Virus record (IMG/VR): IMGVR_UViG_3300004804_000536
Coordinates: 1 to 25,091 of that record
Origin: a virus
Direction: 5' to 3' (one strand)
Length of the DNA stretch: 25,091 bases
A program made the translations under genes and the position numbers. The number at the start of each line of letters is the position of its first letter. The stretch's first letter is position 1. Shown here piece by piece: positions 3,037-24,153 of this stretch. The notes beneath the pieces were generated by a model, which had not been told where the DNA came from, did not search any database, and saw only the letters and a program-made list of their open reading frames with translations.

Positions 3037-4030
3037 AGAAACTATTACAAAGGAATTTGGCGATAATGTAATCATAGGAGGCAACCATCTTGTAGAAAAA
3101 AAATTAACTGTTATTCCCGTTAGTCCCGCAGTAGATATGATTTTGGGTGGAGGTATTCCAGAAGGTAGTTTTGTAACATTTACAGGTCAACCAAAATGCG
3201 GCAAAACATTAACCAGTTTAGATTTTGCATCTAATGCACAGAAAAAAGAATATGGTTCTCGCCCCGTGTACTATCTAAACATTGAGGGTCGTTTAAAACG
3301 CCGCGATCTCTTAGGTATCAAGGGATTAGACCTAGAGAATTTCAATATCATAGAATCTACTCAGGGTAATATCTTAACTGGTGAAAAATATCTAGAAATA
3401 GCCACCCAGATCATCAGCACCGTCCCTAACTGTATAATGATCATAGACTCATACTCTGCTATTTGTACAGAAGCAGAGATGACAAGTGGAATGGATAAAA
3501 TGCAACGAGCCGATGGTGCAAAACTCTTATCAAAGTTCTGTAGAAAAGCGGCCAATATCATTCCCGTCAACAAGAATATTGTCATTGGTATTACTCACTT
3601 AATGGGTAATCCAACAGGATATGGTGCAGAATTTAAAGAGAAGAGTGGTCAATCTATCGGTTATCAATGTGATGTAAAGCTTCGTGCCAAAACATCTAAG
3701 CCTTGGTTATTAGGTACGGAGAATATTGAAATAGGAAAAGAAGTTGAATGGAAAGCAGAGTGGACAGCCATAGCTCCCCCTGGTGGTATTTGTACAAGTT
3801 ATATCAGATATGGTCAGGGGATTGATAGATATATGGAGATTATTGTATTAGGTTGCGATTTGGGTTTAATTGATAAGGCTGGTGCTTGGTATACACTATC
3901 TTATTTAGGGGATGAAACGAAAGCTAAGTTTCAGGGTACTGAAAAGATAAGAAATTTCTTACTAGAAAACGAAGAAGCTTATAATAAACTATTCAACGAA
4001 ATTCAAAAGATGATGGGATTTACTAAGTGA
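3026..4030 (+). CDS. RecA/UvsX-like recombinase
   Basis: A 334-residue strand-exchange ATPase of the RecA superfamily. It should form filaments on single-stranded DNA and drive homologous pairing in phage recombination and recombination-dependent replication. Walker A is GQPKCGKT at residues 54-61. The strand with the catalytic Glu is YYLNIEGRL (E87), and Walker B is IMIIDSYS ending at D141. Residues 185-212 (IGITHLMGNPTG...KSGQSIGY) match the L2 region. The protein lacks the long C-terminal domain of cellular RecA, as is usual for phage versions. It overlaps the upstream gene by 11 bases and the downstream nuclease gene by 4 (GTGA). The assignment to the family is strong; whether it is closer to RecA or UvsX cannot be settled here. 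Confidence 0.9.
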   Translation: MGIKETITKEFGDNVIIGGNHLVEKKLTVIPVSPAVDMILGGGIPEGSFVTFTGQPKCGKTLTSLDFASNAQKKEYGSRPVYYLNIEGRLKRRDLLGIKGLDLENFNIIESTQGNILTGEKYLEIATQIISTVPNCIMIIDSYSAICTEAEMTSGMDKMQRADGAKLLSKFCRKAANIIPVNKNIVIGITHLMGNPTGYGAEFKEKSGQSIGYQCDVKLRAKTSKPWLLGTENIEIGKEVEWKAEWTAIAPPGGICTSYIRYGQGIDRYMEIIVLGCDLGLIDKAGAWYTLSYLGDETKAKFQGTEKIRNFLLENEEAYNKLFNEIQKMMGFTK

Positions 4031-4425
4031 TTAAAGTACGCGATCTAGATAATAATCTTATCAACTGGAATATTAATGGATGCTATCCGGGTAATGCTGC
4101 TAAATCTAGTTATCATTTATCGGCTAGGTCTTTAATCAAAGACTGTTATCCAACTATGCAGATATTAGAAGAGGTTCCTGTTTATCTCAGAAAAAATGAA
4201 ATAGTATACCTTGATTTCTACATACCTTTATTAAAAAAGTGCATAGAAATACACGGTGAACAACATTATAAATACGTTCCTCATTTTCATGGCAATGTCC
4301 TATCTTTTGCAAAAGCACAGAAAAGAGATAAGGATAAAAAATACTGGTGCGAATTGAATGGAATATCTTTTGTAGAACTAGCTTACGATAAACAAGAAGA
4401 ATGGAAGGAATGCGTAATCAAATGA
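4027..4425 (+). CDS. Vsr/DUF559-like PD-(D/E)XK nuclease
   Basis: A 132-residue protein whose centre has the layout of small Vsr-like endonucleases: E48-E49, then LDFYIPLLKKCIEIHGEQHY with D63, E74, H76 and H80, followed by R100-D101 and NGISFVEL as the closing strand. These acidic and His residues are the expected metal and catalytic ligands. Start is GTG 4027, overlapping the recA-like stop as GTGA. Similar small phage nucleases occur as free-standing homing enzymes, but a repair or recombination role beside recA is equally possible. The fold is a pattern call from a few motifs; the function is inferred. Confidence 0.65.
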   Translation: MIKVRDLDNNLINWNINGCYPGNAAKSSYHLSARSLIKDCYPTMQILEEVPVYLRKNEIVYLDFYIPLLKKCIEIHGEQHYKYVPHFHGNVLSFAKAQKRDKDKKYWCELNGISFVELAYDKQEEWKECVIK

Positions 4426-12259: not shown

Positions 12260-12531
12260 AGGGTCTAATAATAGCGATTGTATTATTTTACATAACTCAT
12301 AATCCAAGTAAATTACTAGACAACCCCGATCAACAAGCCGGAATACTTGTGACACAAAGATTTAATTTAAAGGATAATGACTGTATTGTTGTGACTTTTA
12401 ATTGGAAAGAAAAGGGTAAATGGTTAAGCCGGGATCTTGAGATATGGATATGTGATAATCGTCTTTATGGTCCCTATGGCATAGTTAATAGTCATGTATT
12501 ATATGATTGTGTTTGGAGACATAAGAAATGA
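12256..12531 (+). CDS. Hypothetical protein with N-terminal hydrophobic segment, 91 aa
   Basis: The first 14 residues (MKGLIIAIVLFYIT) form a short signal-like or membrane-anchor stretch, followed by a globular domain of alternating strands (GILVTQRFNL, CIVVTFNWK, LEIWICDNRLYGPYG). It may sit at the membrane or be exported. ATGA overlaps on both sides. No family recognised. Confidence 0.55.
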   Translation: MKGLIIAIVLFYITHNPSKLLDNPDQQAGILVTQRFNLKDNDCIVVTFNWKEKGKWLSRDLEIWICDNRLYGPYGIVNSHVLYDCVWRHKK

Positions 12532-12767
12532 ACGACCTATTAGAAAAGCTTAAAAAACTAGCATATAGACAACATTATAGCTGTGAAGATAATTGGTATT
12601 CTTGTCCATTATCAGAAGATGGATGCTCTAATGACCTCGCGGGGAGTGAATGTAATTGTTGGGCAAGATATAATAAAGAAATGGAAGATTTGTTTAAAAA
12701 ATTAGAAGAAATTATTAATAAAGGACCATCTAATGGGATATCCAATGACCTATCCGAGAGTAATTAA
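12528..12767 (+). CDS. Cys-rich hypothetical protein, 79 aa
   Basis: Five cysteines lie in residues 19-44 (CEDNWYSCPLSEDGCSNDLA, then ECNC), enough to bind one zinc or an iron-sulfur centre. Helical ends flank them. It overlaps the preceding gene by 4 bases and the following gene by 35. Function unknown. Confidence 0.6.
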   Translation: MNDLLEKLKKLAYRQHYSCEDNWYSCPLSEDGCSNDLAGSECNCWARYNKEMEDLFKKLEEIINKGPSNGISNDLSESN

Positions 12768-12981
12768 CCGCAATCATTTAATTGGTGGATATAGCGTTGA
12801 ACCCAACACCTATCCTGCACAAAGATTAATAGCTGGTGATTTGCGACGATTTGAGCAAGACGCTAGAGATAATATATACGGTCAACAGATCGCTGATGCC
12901 GCAGGAGTACCTCTTGAAGTAGCACAGCGGGTTTTAACAGCATTATTTACAGATTGTGGATATACACAGGAACAAGAATGA
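12733..12981 (+). CDS. Hypothetical protein, 82 aa, upstream of polymerase
   Basis: ATG 12733 has AAGGA at 12721-12725 with 7-base spacing, so the long overlap with the previous gene is credible. Residues about 48-80 (GQQIADAAGVPLEVAQRVLTALFTDCG) look like a small winged-helix or HTH unit, so DNA binding is possible. Its TGA overlaps the original polymerase start codon (ATGA at 12978-12981), showing that the polymerase once followed it directly. Confidence 0.6.
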   Translation: MGYPMTYPRVINRNHLIGGYSVEPNTYPAQRLIAGDLRRFEQDARDNIYGQQIADAAGVPLEVAQRVLTALFTDCGYTQEQE

Positions 12982-13016
12982 AAAACTATATTCCTCTTCA
13001 CGCACATAGTCATTAA
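12978..13016 (+). pseudogene. dnaE: Orphaned first 12 codons of DNA polymerase III alpha
   Basis: ATG 12978 opens MKNYIPLHAHSH and meets TAA at 13014-13016. This is the first strand and metal-binding motif I (HxHS) of a PHP domain, the N-terminus of bacterial Pol III alpha. The expected continuation, DSLLDGLSRPEQIAARC, starts at 13832 on the far side of the HNH insert. Joining CAT (13011-13013) to GAC (13832) restores a perfect PHP start, HAHSHDSLLDGLS, in phase 0. The piece keeps its ATGA coupling with the preceding gene, so it may still be translated as a 12-residue peptide. I consider it a remnant left by the insertion. Confidence 0.75.
12987..13010 (+). repeat. Original copy of PHP motif I coding sequence (paired with 13794-13817)
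   Basis: These eight codons (Y-I-P-L-H-A-H-S) match the eight codons at 13794-13817 (Y-V-P-L-H-V-H-S) in phase and order. The proteins agree at 6 of 8 positions, the other two being conservative, but only 16 of 24 bases are identical, with most third positions changed. The copies are thus homologous but well diverged, as if the second came with the invading cassette from a relative's polymerase and was not duplicated here. Confidence 0.7.
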
Positions 13017-13060
13017 TCAGTAATTTTGGTGTATAGTGTAAATGAAGGAGAAATACTATT

Positions 13061-13789
13061 ATGTCCAAAATCAAAGGTAGAAAAATAAGTAATGGTCGAT
13101 TTGTTAAATGCTATGATACTAAAATTACTAAAGAATATTTGCTTCAAGAATATAGTATCAATAAAACCGGACCATATGTGATTGCTAAAAAATGCGGAGT
13201 ATCACCCAGAACTATTTATAACTATCTAGACTACTATCAAATACCTAGAGAAAATAGAAAAAAAGAAATATCATCAGGAGATACATTCAAATTCTTAACA
13301 ACTATCAAGGTTTGTGGTAAAAGAAAAAATGGAGCCCATATTTGGTTATGTAGATGTCAGTGTGGTAAACTATCTAAGGTTGGTACATCTCAATTAAAGA
13401 ATGGTAGAATTGTTAGTTGTGGCTGTTATAAAAACAGACTTAAGAACCATAGATGGAAAGGATACTGTGGTGTTAGTGGTTCTAGAATAGCAGAGATTAA
13501 GCTTAGAGCTAAGAAAAAAGGATGGGAGTTTGATCTAACTGCACAGTTTCTATGGGAACTATTTGAGCAACAAAATAGAAAATGCGCCATTACTGACATA
13601 GATATTGATCTTGATACAAATGGATCAGTAGACAGAATAGATAGTTCCAAAGGATATACCAAAGACAATGTTTGGTGGACAGATACTAGTATCAATAAAA
13701 TGAAACTAGATTTTGAATTGCGTAAATTTGTTAAATTGTGTGAACAGGTAGTTAATAACAAGGAGAATATAAAGTATGGACGTGAATAA
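13061..13789 (+). CDS. HNH homing endonuclease
   Basis: A 242-residue protein. Residues 20-60 contain a helix-turn-helix (GPYVIAKKCGVSPRTIYNYL) for DNA recognition. Residues 85-125 form the small Cys-containing domain common in phage HNH enzymes (WLCRCQCGKLSKVGTSQLKN, then SCGC). The nuclease domain follows at about 170-215: RKCAITDIDIDL, SVDRIDSSKGYTKDNVWW, TSINKMK, giving the D-R-I-D and N motifs of the fold. The usual first His may be replaced, as in relatives reading SxDRID. AAGGAG lies 9 bases before ATG 13061. Its last 14 bases overlap the new polymerase start at 13776, so translation of the two is probably coupled. Sitting between two parts of one gene, it is very likely a homing enzyme targeting the PHP-coding sequence. 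Confidence 0.85.
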   Translation: MSKIKGRKISNGRFVKCYDTKITKEYLLQEYSINKTGPYVIAKKCGVSPRTIYNYLDYYQIPRENRKKEISSGDTFKFLTTIKVCGKRKNGAHIWLCRCQCGKLSKVGTSQLKNGRIVSCGCYKNRLKNHRWKGYCGVSGSRIAEIKLRAKKKGWEFDLTAQFLWELFEQQNRKCAITDIDIDLDTNGSVDRIDSSKGYTKDNVWWTDTSINKMKLDFELRKFVKLCEQVVNNKENIKYGRE

Positions 13790-13820
13790 GGGATATGTGC
13801 CTTTACACGTCCATTCTTAA
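13776..13820 (+). CDS. dnaE: Replacement polymerase N-terminus ending in TAA (candidate bypass leader)
   Basis: ATG 13776 has AGGAG at 13761-13765, a better ribosome site than most genes in this window, and reads MDVNKGYVPLHVHS before TAA at 13818-13820. YVPLHVHS is again the PHP motif I. The body of the polymerase continues in a different frame from CAC at 13829. A start signal this good in front of a 14-codon reading frame that encodes exactly the missing domain start suggests that ribosomes begin polymerase synthesis here and recode past the stop. If no recoding occurs, the product is just a 14-residue peptide. Confidence 0.6.
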   Translation: MDVNKGYVPLHVHS

Positions 13821-13840
13821 GTGAATCCCACGACTCACTT
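13815..13840 (+). other. Candidate translational bypass site
   Basis: The order is Ser codon TCT (13815-13817), TAA stop, GTGAA, Ser codon TCC (13826-13828), then CAC GAC TCA CTT TTG in the polymerase frame. TCT and TCC can be read by the same tRNA-Ser (anticodon GGA). A hop of that peptidyl-tRNA from TCT to TCC would skip 11 bases (taagtgaatcc) and give HVHSHDSLLDGLS, the exact sequence expected of an intact PHP domain. AAGTGA (13819-13824) and TCACTT (13835-13840) are perfect inverted repeats that would form a 6-bp stem around the landing codon. The pieces are directly visible; the bypass itself is inference. Confidence 0.4.
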
Positions 13841-15211
13841 TTGGATGGACTAAGCCGCCCCGAGCAAATAGCCGCCCGTTGTAAAAAAATAGCAGCATCG
13901 GCCTGTGCTTTAACGGATCATGGAACTATCTCTGGTACTGTAAAGTTTCATAATGTGATGAAAAAGGCTGGAATCAAACCTATTTTGGGTTGTGAACTAT
14001 ATATCAGTGATCAAGATTGTAAGATCAAAACTCCCGAGAATAGAAAACTAAGCCATCTAGTGGTTTTAGCTAAGAATAAAAAAGGATGGAAGAATCTTAT
14101 TAAGATAGTATCAGAAAGTAATAAATTAGAAAATCTCTATTATAAACCAAGACTAGATCTCAAAACTCTAGGAGAATTAGTAGACGGTAATCTAATAGCT
14201 TTTGCTGGACACTTAGGATCAACATTGTCTAACAAGATTATGCAGTTAGATGATTCTGATTGGAAAAATCAGGGATTGTCTCATGTGGGGCTATTAACTG
14301 ATATTTTTGGAAAAGAAAACTTCTTCCTAGAAGCACAGTTAATGGATAAGCAGTATAATCCAGATCAAGTGATTGTGACAGAAAAGGTGCGTGAACTTGC
14401 TAAATTAACAGGATTGAAAGTCATATGCACACCAGACGCCCACTATGCCGAAAAGAGCGATAGTGTTGATCAGAGGATTTTATTGTGTAATAATCTTAAG
14501 ACTACTATAGCTGATGTTAATAAGAAAATCATTGAGAATGAGAGTTTTGGAATGGACTGTTTTTTCCGTTCTGATAACTATCATATTCTAGATAGTTTTG
14601 AAATGTCGGCCCTACATACAGAAGAAGAGATTGAGAATACCAATCTGATCAATAGTATGATAGAGCTTTATGATGTTAATTCAAAGCCCCTATTGCCATC
14701 ATTTCCTTGTCCACCAGAATTCGACCAAGATGAATATTTAAGACATCTCTGTAGAACAGGATGGAAAACTAAAATAGATTCAGTTATCCCCAAAGAAGAT
14801 CATGAAAAATATGTAGATAGAATAAAGATGGAGTTGGGTGTTCTCCAGGGGGCCGGATTGTCTAGTTATTTTTTAATCCTGCAAGACGTACTAAATCACG
14901 TTCGACAAAACAATTGGCTTCCGGGGCCAGGAAGAGGTTGTTTTGTTCCAGAAACAAATATCAAGATGTCTGATGGTACATTTAAAGCTATTAAAAATGT
15001 AGTAGTTGGGGACTCTGTTATTGATGCATTTGGAAATCCACAGATAGTATATGATACATTACAATATGATATACTGGAGGATATTCTTGAGTTAGAATTT
15101 GAAAATGGTATAATTATTAGATGTACAAAAGATCATAAATTCTTAACTCATAATAGAGGTTGGATAGAGGCTCAATACCTTGATGACGATGATGATATAG
15201 TGGAAGTTTAA
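13841..15211 (+). CDS. dnaE: DNA polymerase III alpha, fragment 1 (PHP domain to GPGRG, with N-terminal intein half)
   Basis: The frame is open from 13790; the only conventional start is TTG 13841 (LDGLSRPEQ), without a clear binding site, so real synthesis may enter from 13776 by recoding. PHP metal-binding motifs follow: ALTDHGTISG, GIKPILGCELYI and VICTPDAHYAE. Next comes the palm N-terminal part, with LQGAGLSSYFLILQDVLNHV and WLPGPGRG, the strand before the catalytic region. Directly after GPGRG the intein begins with C1 (codon 14939-14941). It runs 90 residues to TAA at 15209. Without intein this fragment supplies about 370 polymerase residues counted from 13829. It is the main replicative polymerase of the phage if splicing and assembly work. 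Confidence 0.85.
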   Translation: MDGLSRPEQIAARCKKIAASACALTDHGTISGTVKFHNVMKKAGIKPILGCELYISDQDCKIKTPENRKLSHLVVLAKNKKGWKNLIKIVSESNKLENLYYKPRLDLKTLGELVDGNLIAFAGHLGSTLSNKIMQLDDSDWKNQGLSHVGLLTDIFGKENFFLEAQLMDKQYNPDQVIVTEKVRELAKLTGLKVICTPDAHYAEKSDSVDQRILLCNNLKTTIADVNKKIIENESFGMDCFFRSDNYHILDSFEMSALHTEEEIENTNLINSMIELYDVNSKPLLPSFPCPPEFDQDEYLRHLCRTGWKTKIDSVIPKEDHEKYVDRIKMELGVLQGAGLSSYFLILQDVLNHVRQNNWLPGPGRGCFVPETNIKMSDGTFKAIKNVVVGDSVIDAFGNPQIVYDTLQYDILEDILELEFENGIIIRCTKDHKFLTHNRGWIEAQYLDDDDDIVEV

Positions 15212-15406
15212 AAAGAACCCCAGGGGGAAAATTCTGGATAATATTTGATAATGAGATAGAAGTAAAAACCAACTATAAAAAAGCTAGAAAATTACATTAT
15301 GAAATTAAAGAAAAAAACAGTAATTAAGAATTATCAGGGTATTGTTCACGATATTTCTGTAAAAAATACAGCGTCTTATAATGTAGAAGGAATAGGGGTA
15401 CATAAT
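14939..15406 (+). mobile_element. Intein at GPGRG/S of the polymerase (split, or contiguous with two frame changes)
   Basis: The N-half starts CFVPETNIKMSDGTFKAIKN (block A, nucleophile Cys1) and has block B as GIIIRCTKDHKFLT, with the TxxH motif. The C-half has block F (YQGIVHDISVKN) and block G GVHN, followed by the +1 nucleophile Ser in SAAGCLVSYLV. Excision rejoins GPGRG to SAAG, the normal Pol III alpha sequence (E. coli GPGRGSGAGSLV). There is no endonuclease domain. As written the halves are separate ORFs of 90 and 36 intein residues. Between TAA 15209 and ATG 15299 the host frame has four stops, but frame 15205 is open for 40 codons. Reading through it would give a 156-residue mini-intein, a normal size. 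Both options imply protein splicing. Confidence 0.85.
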
Positions 15407-16132
15407 TCCGCTGCGGGCTGTTTGGTATCGTATCTGGTTAGCATCACGGCTATTGATCCAATCAAGTATGATCTAATGTTTGAAAGATTTTATAACTCTG
15501 GTCGTAATACGGTTGATCATATATCTCTACCAGATATTGACGTAGACGTTCCTATTAGACAAAGAGGGAATATTATCAACTATATTAAGGATAAATATGG
15601 TCATGATAAAGTATCTCAAATGATTACCTTTAATAAGATGAAGGGACGAGGAGCAATTAAAGATGTTCTAAGAGTATACGGAAATGTCTCTTTTGCTGAA
15701 ATGAATGAGATTACTAAGTTTATTCCTGATGAATCCAAAATCTCTGACGAACTACAACAAATGAAAGAAGATGGTGGTGAGGCATCTATTATTCGATGGG
15801 CACTAGAGAATAATTCTAAGGAACTATCTCCATGGTGTCAATTAGAAGAGGATGGAACTCTATCGGGTCCACTATCTAAGAGATTTGAGCAGGCAATTAG
15901 ATTAGAGGGTACTAAAACAAACCAGAGTAAACACGCTGCTGGTCTAGCAATTAGCTCAACCCCACTTGCTGAAATCTGCCCGATGATTTATGATAGTAAG
16001 ACAGGAAATCCTATTGCGGGTATGGAAATGGCAGATTTAGAAAGTCTTGGTATAGTTAAGATGGATATTCTTGGCGTGGCAATGTTAGATAAAATGATGG
16101 CTATTAGAGATATGTTAAAAATAGGAGCATAA
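15299..16132 (+). CDS. dnaE: DNA polymerase III alpha, fragment 2 (C-terminal intein half plus catalytic palm)
   Basis: ATG 15299 opens a basic 36-residue intein C-half (MKLKKKTVIKNYQGIVHDIS...GVHN), then SAAGCLVSYLVSITAIDP of the polymerase. No strong ribosome site precedes it. All three catalytic aspartates are here: two in LPDIDVDVPIRQRG (E. coli PDFDVDF) and one in VKMDILGVAMLDKM (E. coli KFDFLGL). The conserved KHAAGLAIS patch is also present. The fragment stops just after that helix (TAA 16130), where a normal alpha subunit would run on into the fingers. It contributes 241 residues after splicing. It needs fragment 1 by trans-splicing and fragment 3 by non-covalent assembly. Confidence 0.88.
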   Translation: MKLKKKTVIKNYQGIVHDISVKNTASYNVEGIGVHNSAAGCLVSYLVSITAIDPIKYDLMFERFYNSGRNTVDHISLPDIDVDVPIRQRGNIINYIKDKYGHDKVSQMITFNKMKGRGAIKDVLRVYGNVSFAEMNEITKFIPDESKISDELQQMKEDGGEASIIRWALENNSKELSPWCQLEEDGTLSGPLSKRFEQAIRLEGTKTNQSKHAAGLAISSTPLAEICPMIYDSKTGNPIAGMEMADLESLGIVKMDILGVAMLDKMMAIRDMLKIGA

Positions 16133-16135
16133 ATT

Positions 16136-16312
16136 ATGACTAAGCAATTTTCAGAATTGGCTGTTGGAGATAAGTTCAAATGGGTAGATGGCGAAATCTA
16201 TACAAAGATAGAGCAAGAGCAGACCAGTTGCTGCACATATAATAGTGCTGTGAATGATCAGGGTGGTAAGATTCAGGTTGAACCAATTAAGGATGTAGAG
16301 GTATTGGAATGA
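16136..16312 (+). CDS. Small hypothetical protein, 58 aa
   Basis: ATG 16136, three bases after fragment 2 stops (AGGAG at 16123-16127), to TGA 16310-16312, which overlaps the exonuclease start as ATGA. The product contains FSELAVGDKFKWVDGEIYTKI, a small beta-rich pattern shared by many short phage and bacterial proteins with no known role. Its position inside the polymerase gene suggests that it arrived with the exonuclease as a unit. Confidence 0.65.
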   Translation: MTKQFSELAVGDKFKWVDGEIYTKIEQEQTSCCTYNSAVNDQGGKIQVEPIKDVEVLE

Positions 16313-17010
16313 TATCTTATAATAAGATTGCTGTATTTGACTTTGAAACAGATGGAAGTAATCCCAAAGTATGTAGTCCTGTCCAACTAGCTTGTATAAT
16401 GATAGATCCTATTAAAAACGAGATTCTAGAAGGATCTGAGTTTAATATAGAGATGAAACCTGACAAACTAGAACAAGATTCTTCTTACTCATATAAGAAT
16501 GAGGCAGACGGTAATATTTTAGAGTGGCACTCTAAGGTTAGAGCTTGTTCAGAAGCGGATATTTTAGATAGATGGAAAAATGCGACACCTCAAAAACAGG
16601 CTTGGCAGATGTTTATCCAATATCTGGATAAGTATCACTGTAGAGCAAGTAAGAAGACTAAGTTCTCATCTCCCATAGCGGCTGGATATAACATACAAAG
16701 ATTTGACTTAAAGATCATAGAGCGATTAAGTTTGAAATATGATAATGCCTCTAAAGAGGGTGAAAGCGAAATATTTCATCCAAGAGACAATCTAGATGTT
16801 ATGTTTATGCTTTATCCTTGGTTTAGAAACTTAGATGATGTTAAAAGTCTATCTCTAGATAATGTTAGACAATATCTTGGCATACCAACCGAAGGGGGAC
16901 ACGATGCCTTGAAAGACGTTCGTGATACTGCTGATATATTAATTAGACTACTAAAACTACATAAGAGCTTATCTCAAAAAATTCTATTCAAGGATTCTTG
17001 CAAAAAATGA
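16309..17010 (+). CDS. DnaQ-like 3'-5' exonuclease (DEDDh), probable proofreader
   Basis: A 233-residue DEDDh exonuclease. Exo I is AVFDFETDGSNP (D and E ligands), Exo II is AAGYNIQRFDLKII (Asp), and Exo III is GGHDALKDVRDTADIL with the catalytic H and the last D five residues later. Length and motifs fit the epsilon subunit that removes mismatched 3' ends. It lies between the palm and finger fragments of the polymerase and overlaps the finger fragment as ATGA, so the three are co-translated and very likely act together. The unusual point is its location inside the gene of its partner. Confidence 0.88.
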   Translation: MISYNKIAVFDFETDGSNPKVCSPVQLACIMIDPIKNEILEGSEFNIEMKPDKLEQDSSYSYKNEADGNILEWHSKVRACSEADILDRWKNATPQKQAWQMFIQYLDKYHCRASKKTKFSSPIAAGYNIQRFDLKIIERLSLKYDNASKEGESEIFHPRDNLDVMFMLYPWFRNLDDVKSLSLDNVRQYLGIPTEGGHDALKDVRDTADILIRLLKLHKSLSQKILFKDSCKK

Positions 17011-22917: not shown

Positions 22918-23372
22918 GAAGTATCTTAATAGAAACAAAGACAGATAATGATAGCAATGTTGCTCATCTATTAAATGGATTAGCCTACAAGGCAGATATT
23001 AATTTTAGCTTATTTACGCCCGATTTTTCAGTAGCTATGAATCAACCAAAGTTCTTCACTATACTACCACTGCATGAGGCAAAGTTCTATTTTGGGTCTT
23101 TGTTTGTGTGGGACTTGATTACATTAGATTTAATTACTTCACCACCAACTTTTCCTAATCTAGAAAAAATACTATTTTATCAGAATGCAGATTTACCATG
23201 GATGAGAAATAAGAACGTCCCATATTCTACATGGAATAGATTCTTCAACAATCCAAGAGTACAAATATTCACAGATAATATGCTAGCTAAAGATATTATT
23301 AACAATACTTGGAATTCTAATTGCAAATTTATTAATCAAATTAACCCGGATACTTTATATGAAATCCTATGA
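22902..23372 (+). CDS. Hypothetical protein, 156 aa
   Basis: The sequence alternates hydrophobic strands and aromatic-rich loops (INFSLFTPDFSVAMNQPKFF, LFVWDLITLDLIT, KILFYQNADLPWM). It looks like the N-terminal half of a GT-B enzyme without the donor half. It overlaps the preceding gene by 16 bases and the following nuclease by 14. A truncated relative of a glycosyltransferase is possible, since the next gene is a homing-type nuclease whose arrival might have cut it; I see no matching C-terminal half downstream. Confidence 0.6.
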   Translation: MRKNVGSILIETKTDNDSNVAHLLNGLAYKADINFSLFTPDFSVAMNQPKFFTILPLHEAKFYFGSLFVWDLITLDLITSPPTFPNLEKILFYQNADLPWMRNKNVPYSTWNRFFNNPRVQIFTDNMLAKDIINNTWNSNCKFINQINPDTLYEIL

Positions 23373-24153
23373 AAAAATGTCAGATAATGAGAAGCAAACC
23401 CTGATACAAGACTGTTATATTGGTAAACTTATGAGTTTTGCCGAAATAGCAGATCTAACAGATACATATGCTAATAGAATCAGAAGAGACGCTATAAAAC
23501 TTAAAATACAAATCAGGAATAAAAGTGAAGCTCAAAAACTAGCTTTAGAATGTGGTCGCCATAAACATCCCACAAAGGGTGAAAAACGATCAGAAGAAGT
23601 TAAGCAGAAGATCGGGGCTGGTATAATGCAATCCTGGGAGAATATGTCCGAGGAGGCATTAAATGGTCGAAAGTTAAAAGCTAAAGAAAATTGGGACAGA
23701 TTATCAGAGGATGAGAAGGCGAACTTTACTCATAAGGCCAATTTAGCTGTTCGTAAAGCTAGCGACGAGGGAACAAAGTTAGAGAAATACTTACATAACG
23801 CCCTATTAAAAGAGGGATATAGGGTTGAGTTTCATAAAGAGCAGTTTCTTTTAACGACCAAGTTGCAAATTGACCTGTTCCTACCTACAATGAACGTAGC
23901 AATCGAAATTGACGGCCCAAGTCATTTTTCTCCCATTTGGGGACAGGATGCTCTGGATAAGAATATTAAATATGACAATAAAAAGAGCGGGTTGATTTTA
24001 GGTAAAGGTATGGTTCTTATAAGAATCAAACAACAAAAAGACTTCTCAAAAACCAGAGCCTCCCAAATACTAGATAAACTATTGATAGAGATTAAACAGA
24101 TAGAGCTTAAGTTTCCCGAACCTGGGGATAGAAACATAGAAATAGGAGATTGA
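23359..24153 (+). CDS. NUMOD3 / Vsr-like (EDxHD-type) homing endonuclease
   Basis: A 264-residue protein in three parts. Residues 15-55 form a helix-turn-helix (MSFAEIADLTDTYANRIRRD). Residues 68-115 contain NUMOD3-like DNA-binding repeats (HPTKGEKRSEEVKQKI, then NGRKLKAKENWDRL). Residues 138-235 form a Vsr-like PD-(D/E)XK nuclease, with E142 (KLEKYLHNALLKEGY), D172 (LQIDLFLP), E183-x-D185 and H189 (AIEIDGPSHF), closing with VLIRIKQ. This design matches the Vsr-like (EDxHD) homing endonucleases reported with fractured phage genes and split inteins. No gene directly interrupted by it is visible. The domain calls are motif-based and fairly firm; the target is unknown. Confidence 0.8.
   Translation: MKSYEKMSDNEKQTLIQDCYIGKLMSFAEIADLTDTYANRIRRDAIKLKIQIRNKSEAQKLALECGRHKHPTKGEKRSEEVKQKIGAGIMQSWENMSEEALNGRKLKAKENWDRLSEDEKANFTHKANLAVRKASDEGTKLEKYLHNALLKEGYRVEFHKEQFLLTTKLQIDLFLPTMNVAIEIDGPSHFSPIWGQDALDKNIKYDNKKSGLILGKGMVLIRIKQQKDFSKTRASQILDKLLIEIKQIELKFPEPGDRNIEIGD

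Follow-up and report, generated by a model that had tools for sequence, protein, structure and literature searches.

Known translational bypassing rests mainly on gene 60 of phage T4 and on the mitochondria of one yeast, and counterparts acting over shorter distances have long been presumed, according to PMC5009743. In T4 gene 60, a small A-site stem-loop together with 5' and 3' stem-loops acts in take-off, sliding and landing (PMC11194080). The byp elements of Magnusiomyces mitochondria are many short inserts that are bypassed, several with an imperfect match between take-off and landing; bypassing there reportedly seems independent of mRNA context (PMC5009743), and we know of their mobility only from a title cited in that paper. 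In phages, candidate bypasses concern the terminase gene of Streptomyces phage Hau3, with a short gap, and the tape measure gene of Corndog, beside an HNH insertion. Both are genes other than dnaE, and the passages on them in PMC5009743 and PMC4351075 describe no comparative family with conserved paired hairpins. In the open literature, among the matches listed, we found no bypass in a phage dnaE, subscription papers lying mostly outside this search.

The locus described here lies in the dnaE gene of a 25,091-nt stretch of viral DNA, hereafter the window. We are confident, short of certainty, that ribosomes here perform a programmed translational bypass, and that the element entered dnaE along with a homing-type endonuclease gene (HEG); the hop is inferred, with no protein, ribosome-profiling or reporter data behind it. 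Like T4 gene 60, the window dnaE has a take-off codon followed immediately by a stop, and coding resumes downstream. Both possess a 5' hairpin and a second hairpin holding the take-off and stop codons, and in both an endonuclease insertion splits or abuts the gene and an upstream ORF overlaps the start of the bypass ORF (60.1 in T4, the HEG in the window). A further feature common to the dnaE elements and T4 gene 60 is that a single conserved protein is encoded by two ORFs, in most cases in different frames. T4 gp60.1 and the window HEG display no similarity, mobA having stayed outside the comparison. The two systems differ in their gaps (50 nt in T4 gene 60 versus 7-12 nt in the dnaE family), in the amino acid at take-off (Gly versus Ser), in the gene itself, which is here dnaE with dozens of natural variants, and in the length of ORF1 (46 codons versus 14 in the window); the KKYK signal is absent here. 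Unlike in T4 gene 60, the landing triplet in the dnaE family is often not identical to the take-off codon. The dnaE elements resemble the mitochondrial byp elements in being numerous and short with imperfect matches, and differ from them in two conserved hairpins and in the single gene position known in dnaE. This kind of bypass is already known, whereas its gap length, gene, tRNA and breadth appear to be new.

Layout of the interrupted dnaE gene

The features of the locus are collected in Table 1. The sequence-only reading had proposed that a ribosome-binding site and ATG 13776 drive translation of MDVNKGYVPLHVHS straight into a TAA, the remainder of the polymerase lying in another frame, and that a Ser codon before the stop (TCT) is answered by another (TCC) after it, in the polymerase frame. 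All of this is present as described. ORF1 begins at ATG 13776, which the end of the HEG overlaps by 14 nt, and its 14 codons are followed by TAA directly after TCT. The landing TCC begins 5 nt past this stop codon, and CAC GAC TCA CTT TTG, from 13829, is in the polymerase frame and not in that of ORF1. A PHP domain is matched at E 4.5e-29 for 13841-15208. When the 11-nt gap is skipped, the reading becomes PLHVHS-HDSLLDG with native spacing. The arrangement is thus real.

Table 1. Features of the window dnaE locus
Feature	Position	Strand	Basis
Orphan native dnaE 5' end MKNYIPLHAHSH, with TAA	12978..13013; TAA 13014..13016	+	sequence; uninterrupted in L002
HEG, EndoVII/HNH-like homing-type endonuclease, 242 aa	13061..13789	+	PHROG matches
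Shine-Dalgarno-like AAGGAG	13760..13765	+	sequence
Putative bypass ORF1 MDVNKGYVPLHVHS, last codon the take-off TCT (13815-13817)	13776..13817	+	sequence; homologous ORF1 in 60/158 polymerases
Putative untranslated gap TAAGTGAATCC, 11 nt, stop TAA (13818-13820) first, landing triplet TCC (13826-13828) last	13818..13828	+	sequence
ORF2: polymerase body from CAC, PHP domain, start of alpha NTPase domain, intein N-part	13829..15211	+	Pfam-type match, dN/dS
Putative imported recoded stretch	13829..13855	+	9 nt differences vs L002, all synonymous
5' hairpin (predicted): ATGGACGTG 13776-13784 with CACGTCCAT 13806-13814	13776..13814	+	folding, pair counts
Bypass hairpin (predicted): lower stem 13809-13816/13843-13850, upper stem 13819-13824/13835-13840	13809..13850	+	folding, pair counts

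The empty site and the interrupted relatives

The closest comparison is offered by locus L002, whose polymerase body is 99% identical to that of the window and in which MKNYIPLHAHSHDSLLDGLS runs uninterrupted, without endonuclease and without intein. L002 contains an uninterrupted HAHSHDSLLDG, which is the junction that had been predicted for the hop from the orphan 5' exon (HAHSH) and the body. In the 27 nt following the resume codon the two loci differ at nine positions, all synonymously, and beyond them only 7 differences are found in the next ~570 nt. By this comparison L002 is the empty site of the window's cassette, and because a cluster of synonymous differences gives way to near identity with an uninterrupted gene, the alignment also makes the cassette a recent insertion that carried a short imported coding stretch with it.

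Comparison with related phages had been named as a check on the hop, and the family answers it with 60 distinct polymerases that have a stop after HxHS, in addition to the empty site. Loci came from protein scans of IMG/VR and from DNA patterns, a polymerase body and 5' end being required. The 308 loci (195 intact, 113 interrupted) were reduced to 158 distinct ones, window included, by collapsing bodies identical over their first 300 aa; the intact L002 and L005, from one contig, thereby fall into the window's interrupted row, the only one that mixes types. The protein scans took the best 80 of 439, 574 and 417 relatives, two of these three totals meaning "at least". Loci found by pattern are biased toward the letters searched, and protein scans alone supply 27 interrupted rows without the window, or 24 once rows with a pattern-found seed are removed.

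As for the individual searches, all 63 viral matches to one DNA pattern were dnaE 5' ends. A looser pattern returned at least 120 stretches, among which folding, pairing and homology checks led us to judge three as real (L136, L162 and L198). A second pattern gave 10 new loci, 6 judged real and 4 chance. Eight matches were obtained in genome contigs; seven were rejected, their translation not being a polymerase, and the real one, L269, is on a contig of a Chitinophagia MAG. In cultured phages, the DNA search produced short matches at E ~8 in 7 records, none taken as real, and the protein search 913 records with relatives, all below 60% identity, whose 5' ends are outside our counts.

Ninety-eight of the 158 polymerases are uninterrupted, 60 have a stop directly after HxHS, and none belongs to neither class. 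The immediate stop is part of how the 60 were defined; in the window, TCT-TAA is seen as such. Because each gap was taken to end where native spacing is restored, this spacing holds by construction, and the residues found there are independent of it. The interrupted genes follow the pattern HxHS, stop, gap of 7-12 nt, [H/M][Y/F]SLLDG, the window having HD like L002, and L275 EY. The two codons after the gap are HY in 40, MY in 8, MF in 7, HF in 3, and HD and EY in one each, much as in intact genes; the first is H or M in 59/60, and the second Y or F, again in 59/60. Gap lengths are 7 nt (2 genes), 8 (3), 9 (13), 10 (21), 11 (19) and 12 (2), and in the 24 genes known from protein scans only, 7 (1), 8 (3), 9 (2), 10 (9) and 11 (9). 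Modulo 3, the gaps leave 15 genes in frame 0, 23 in frame 1 and 22 in frame 2, so that 45 of the 60 are out of frame. The stops are UAA (31), UAG (27) and UGA (2).

With gaps in every frame, the set cannot be explained by any single frameshift or readthrough, nor, with all three stops in use, by one reassigned stop. One could imagine recoding case by case, with a -1/+2 frameshift for gaps of 8 or 11 nt, a +1 for 7 or 10 and readthrough for 9 or 12, a few extra residues being inserted each time. In a number of examples inspected individually, without a set-wide tally, the required frames do run open across the gap. This would nevertheless demand that related genes sharing one conserved signal use three different mechanisms, and would put a variable 2-4 extra residues beside a motif that keeps the same spacing in all 98 intact homologues, so we hold it to be very improbable.

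After the gap, the gene is open in all 49 interrupted genes with enough sequence. In the 32 codons that follow the resume codon, dN/dS has a median of 0.16 in 723 interrupted pairs and 0.13 in 748 intact pairs, only pairs 70-95% identical being used, and synonymous changes are found in the codons just 3' of the gap. By these measures the interrupted genes are under purifying selection after the gap. It remains formally possible that the stop is a mutation or sequencing artefact in a dead or misassembled polymerase, the window being a virus record of 25 kb and possibly a fragment. We give almost no credence to this, because the same stop is common to 60 distinct polymerases, because every gene that could be followed stays open under selection and because the hairpins described below are conserved.

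Hairpins, and the proposed take-off and landing

The inverted repeat AAGTGA/TCACTT singled out by the sequence-only reading does pair (13819-13824 with 13835-13840), but it is only part of a larger predicted hairpin, whose stem extends beyond it as GTCCATTC/GGATGGAC (13809-13816 with 13843-13850), with the stop in the upper 5' arm and the landing and resume codons in the apical loop. The 61 nt of 13800-13860 fold at -20.7 kcal/mol, versus -7.8 for shuffles. Single-locus z values are -6.0 in the window, -5.4 in L004, -2.7 in L003 and 0.0 in the empty site L002. Given this fold in the window and the same arrangement in 60 of 158 distinct polymerases, the arrangement is not due to chance. As a control, the same folding tool applied to the T4 record recovered the take-off/stop hairpin at a z of only -1.7. 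Over 13776-13900, the lowest-energy fold (z -3.0; 2 of 200 shuffles as good) combines the 5' hairpin with the AAGTGA/TCACTT stem and lacks the GTCCATTC/GGATGGAC stem. The 5' hairpin and the lower 3' stem would be mutually exclusive, since both use GUCCAU.

Across the family, all 43 distinct elements folded give one hairpin with the stop codon in or beside the 5' arm of the upper stem. Over 47 nt, the 60 interrupted genes average -19.4 kcal/mol and the 98 intact ones -5.6; the interrupted L339 row is the outlier at -5.7, and the lowest intact gene goes down to -14.7. The upper stem exists in two registers, with 34 and 9 elements, which were counted apart. Pair 46-61 of one register is AU in 3, CG in 2, GU in 2 and UA in 2, and in the other register AU changes to GC at pair 44-66 and GC to AU at 50-60. 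The 5' hairpin joins the start region to the bases before the take-off codon, one of its pairs being GC in 28, AU in 14 and GU in 1 element; it reaches z -4.39, with 99.0% of cells paired and 14 cells changed on both sides, equalled in 0 of 500 shuffles.

In the three pair counts, the percentage paired, the number of cells changed on both sides and the covariation score each exceeded all 500 shuffles, and the covariation score peaked at slide 0 in all three. The number of pairs with change on both sides did not beat shuffles (500, 84 and 445 of 500 in the three counts), nor did the number of further pair types (500, 84 and 167 of 500), and in the register with pairs 44-66 and 50-60 one slid version outscored the true one in cells changed on both sides (12 versus 9). 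These shuffles ignore relatedness, and the pattern by which elements were picked already prescribes part of the stems. In the interrupted genes known from protein scans only, 7 or more contiguous pairs form a 5' stem in 23 of 24, versus 1 of 97 intact genes, and in L198, whose body is 44-51% identical to three others, the 5' stem AUGGCAG/CUGCCAU has different letters and still pairs. The L339 group (about 3925-4020 in L339) has no 3' hairpin and keeps the stop and the 5' hairpin. On the whole, the pair counts indicate that both hairpins are conserved and partly covarying.

In L339, ORF1 may start at an ATG located 18 nt before a TTG that occupies the usual start.

Of the 60 interrupted genes, 58 have UCU or UCC as take-off codon, compared with 31 of 56 UCN codons at the same Ser in intact genes (Fisher p 7.6e-8, uncorrected for relatedness). 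Just ahead of the resume codon stands UCN in 34 genes, ACU in 15, GCU in 9, and GCC and UGA in one gene each. Under the tRNA reading rules that we assume, take-off and landing could be read by one tRNA without mismatch in 22 of the 60 (21 UCY-UCY pairs and one UCG-UCG), and the UCU and UCC of the window presumably belong to the same tRNA by wobble. The UCG pair is that of L339, across a 7-nt gap. L275 (3721-3792, minus strand) has take-off UCA, stop UGA, a 7-nt gap and resume codon GAA, with a HEG remnant upstream; where a Ser landing triplet would be expected, there is none. The matched Ser landing codon proposed for the window therefore holds there (TCT/TCC) but is not general, 26 of 60 landing triplets not being Ser. 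No tRNA gene was found in the nine sources scanned, and a nearby phage-borne Ser tRNA thus finds no support.

Because only 34 of 60 landing triplets are Ser, the position of the hairpin probably contributes to landing alongside the codon match. Landing on two of three codon-anticodon pairs is plausible; supporting this idea, minimal peptidyl-tRNA pairing can suffice, to judge from a title cited in PMC3014915.

We thus propose the following course of events. The ribosome would start at 13776, translate the 14 codons and pause with peptidyl-tRNA-Ser on UCU and the stop in the A site. The stop-containing hairpin could then close in or next to the A site, exclude the release factor and favour the loss of codon-anticodon pairing, and the 5' hairpin would close behind the ribosome and help to push it forward. 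The tRNA would re-pair at UCC and decoding would resume at CAC, giving PLHVHS-HDSLLDG with its native spacing. The A-site hairpin, the UCY take-off, the short slide and the landing before the resume codon are inferred from T4-like parts at matching places. The stop, the frames and the conservation and covariation of the hairpins can be read in the sequences; the hop, the A-site action of the hairpin and the landing are inferences. ORF1 has 13-15 codons in 38 distinct elements, and as it is only ~14 codons long, a long nascent-peptide signal of the T4 style cannot act. By analogy, the dnaE element may be regarded as a variant working like T4 gene 60. The likeness to the T4 cassette stands for the stop, the hairpins, the HEG and the empty site; it fails for the long nascent-peptide signal and holds only in part for the landing match. 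The landing triplets that are not Ser, the exception of L275 and the L339 group without a 3' hairpin count against a bypass.

On the other side, the polymerase might terminate and reinitiate, its body starting independently at TTG 13841 (or, in some relatives, at an ATG that serves as the resume codon) and so lacking the first PHP motif, and the hairpins regulating initiation. A possible in-frame start indeed lies within 5 codons of the gap in 58 of 60 genes (a TTG at codon five in 42 and at codon four in 1, an ATG at codon one in 15), AGGTGG stands just upstream in some ATG-type relatives, and the ATG lies inside the 5' hairpin. However, the H/M, Y/F and S codons between the gap and the TTG are kept with synonymous changes, the imported stretch of the window likewise preserves H-D-S-L through synonymous changes, and the TTG itself is replaced by CTG in 3/60 and CTT in 1/60. 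Reinitiation would moreover give no reason for PLHVHS, for the UCY codon before the stop or for native-like residues at the right spacing, and we find it unlikely, though it is the alternative that we take most seriously. A bypass, as the sequence-only reading had inferred, is supported by the comparison (empty site, gaps in three frames, native-like residues, hairpins and HEG), the hop itself remaining an inference without peptide or reporter data.

The endonuclease gene and the probable spread of the element

The window HEG matches PHROG 3322 (endonuclease, E 1.1e-22), PHROG 374 (HNH endonuclease, E 2.9e-15) and PHROG 1035 (endonuclease VII, E 1.8e-14), and by these matches belongs with EndoVII/HNH-like endonucleases; Pfam gave only a MerR match below cut-off. 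That the HEG is linked to the bypass had been suspected, and is borne out by the empty site L002 and by the family: a related HEG, full length in 8 cases and a remnant in 5, adjoins 13 of 60 interrupted genes, versus 1 of 98 intact ones, a divergent remnant in L362 (p 1.4e-5, uncorrected for relatedness). In three interrupted and two intact genes a HEG lies about 1 kb upstream instead. A similar orphan native start, MKNYIPLHVHAH ending in a stop, precedes the HEG in L247.

The orphan exon raises the possibility of removal at the RNA level, either by an intron joining 13013 to the body or by excision of the short gap from the mRNA, and HAHSH and the body would then join to native sequence. A group I or II intron core requires more than flanks of ~50 nt, and here fewer than 50 nt precede and ~40 nt follow the HEG, which is too short; Rfam found no match in 12500-14500 at E<=1, and no group I/II catalytic core was found around the HEG. 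L003 and L004 carry the gap with neither HEG nor orphan exon, and we know of no bacterial machinery for excising 7-12 nt. Such removal is therefore hardly conceivable.

In a FastTree tree of the polymerases (149 of the 158 rows, a minimum of 250 residues ahead of any stop being required, with a long-branch warning for L188, L229 and L275), the interrupted state needs 26 changes, at least 12 of them forced by starred branches, versus 42.8 when shuffled; the direction of change was not inferred. Being clustered on the tree yet requiring 26 changes, the interrupted state is, on this tree, both inherited and moved or lost many times. Among interrupted genes (1616 pairs), the 70-nt element region is 78% identical versus 67% for the bodies, the choice by pattern raising the former value; in 60 sampled intact genes (1680 pairs) both are 67%.

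The endonuclease probably acts on intact dnaE genes, cleaving them at the PHP motif. The recoded, gapped copy would be immune, which would let endonuclease and bypass spread together, and many lineages would later have lost the endonuclease and kept the bypass. Cleavage, immunity and this order of events are inferred; what the compared genes themselves display is the empty site, the scattered distribution, the HEG association and purifying selection. We lean, with clear reservations, towards a widespread mobile class of minimal bypass elements, with gaps of 7-12 nt, ~14 nascent residues, two competing hairpins and landing by hairpin geometry plus as few as two codon-anticodon pairs, which would have spread repeatedly through phage dnaE, with and then without the endonuclease.

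The benefit of such a set would be 60 distinct natural variants in one replication gene, in which gap, frame, stop, landing triplet and hairpin register vary, together with an empty site and genes with full, partial or no endonuclease. The minimum needed for a ribosome hop, the determinant of the landing site and the spread of an endonuclease-linked hop thereby become testable. If the bypass is true, gene callers place the dnaE start inside the PHP domain; the body ORF of the window is called from TTG 13841.

Other mobile-like genes were seen around these loci. A distant HEG relative lies one gene upstream, before a PD-(D/E)XK gene, at about 2998-3531 in L015 and also in L249 and L205. A divergent HEG remnant abuts an intact dnaE in L362 (1-240) and L364 (about 2610-2910), stop and start overlapping, and is possibly another homing event at the same place, without bypass.

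In the window, a putative dnaE intein extends over two ORFs (14939-15211 and 15299-15406), its N-part starting at CFVPETNIK and its C-part ending in SYNVEGIGVHN, with Intein_splicing and Hom_end_hint matches below cut-offs. As L002 lacks the intein-like insert, two mobile elements seem to sit in the window dnaE. Further downstream (16132-17010), a small ORF and a DnaQ-like exonuclease (RNase_T) divide dnaE once more ahead of the finger domain, as in L002. Elsewhere in the window, 497-1057, 4027-4425 and 23359-24153 hold one HNH protein (Pfam HNH) and two ORFs without a Pfam match that look endonuclease-like by eye.
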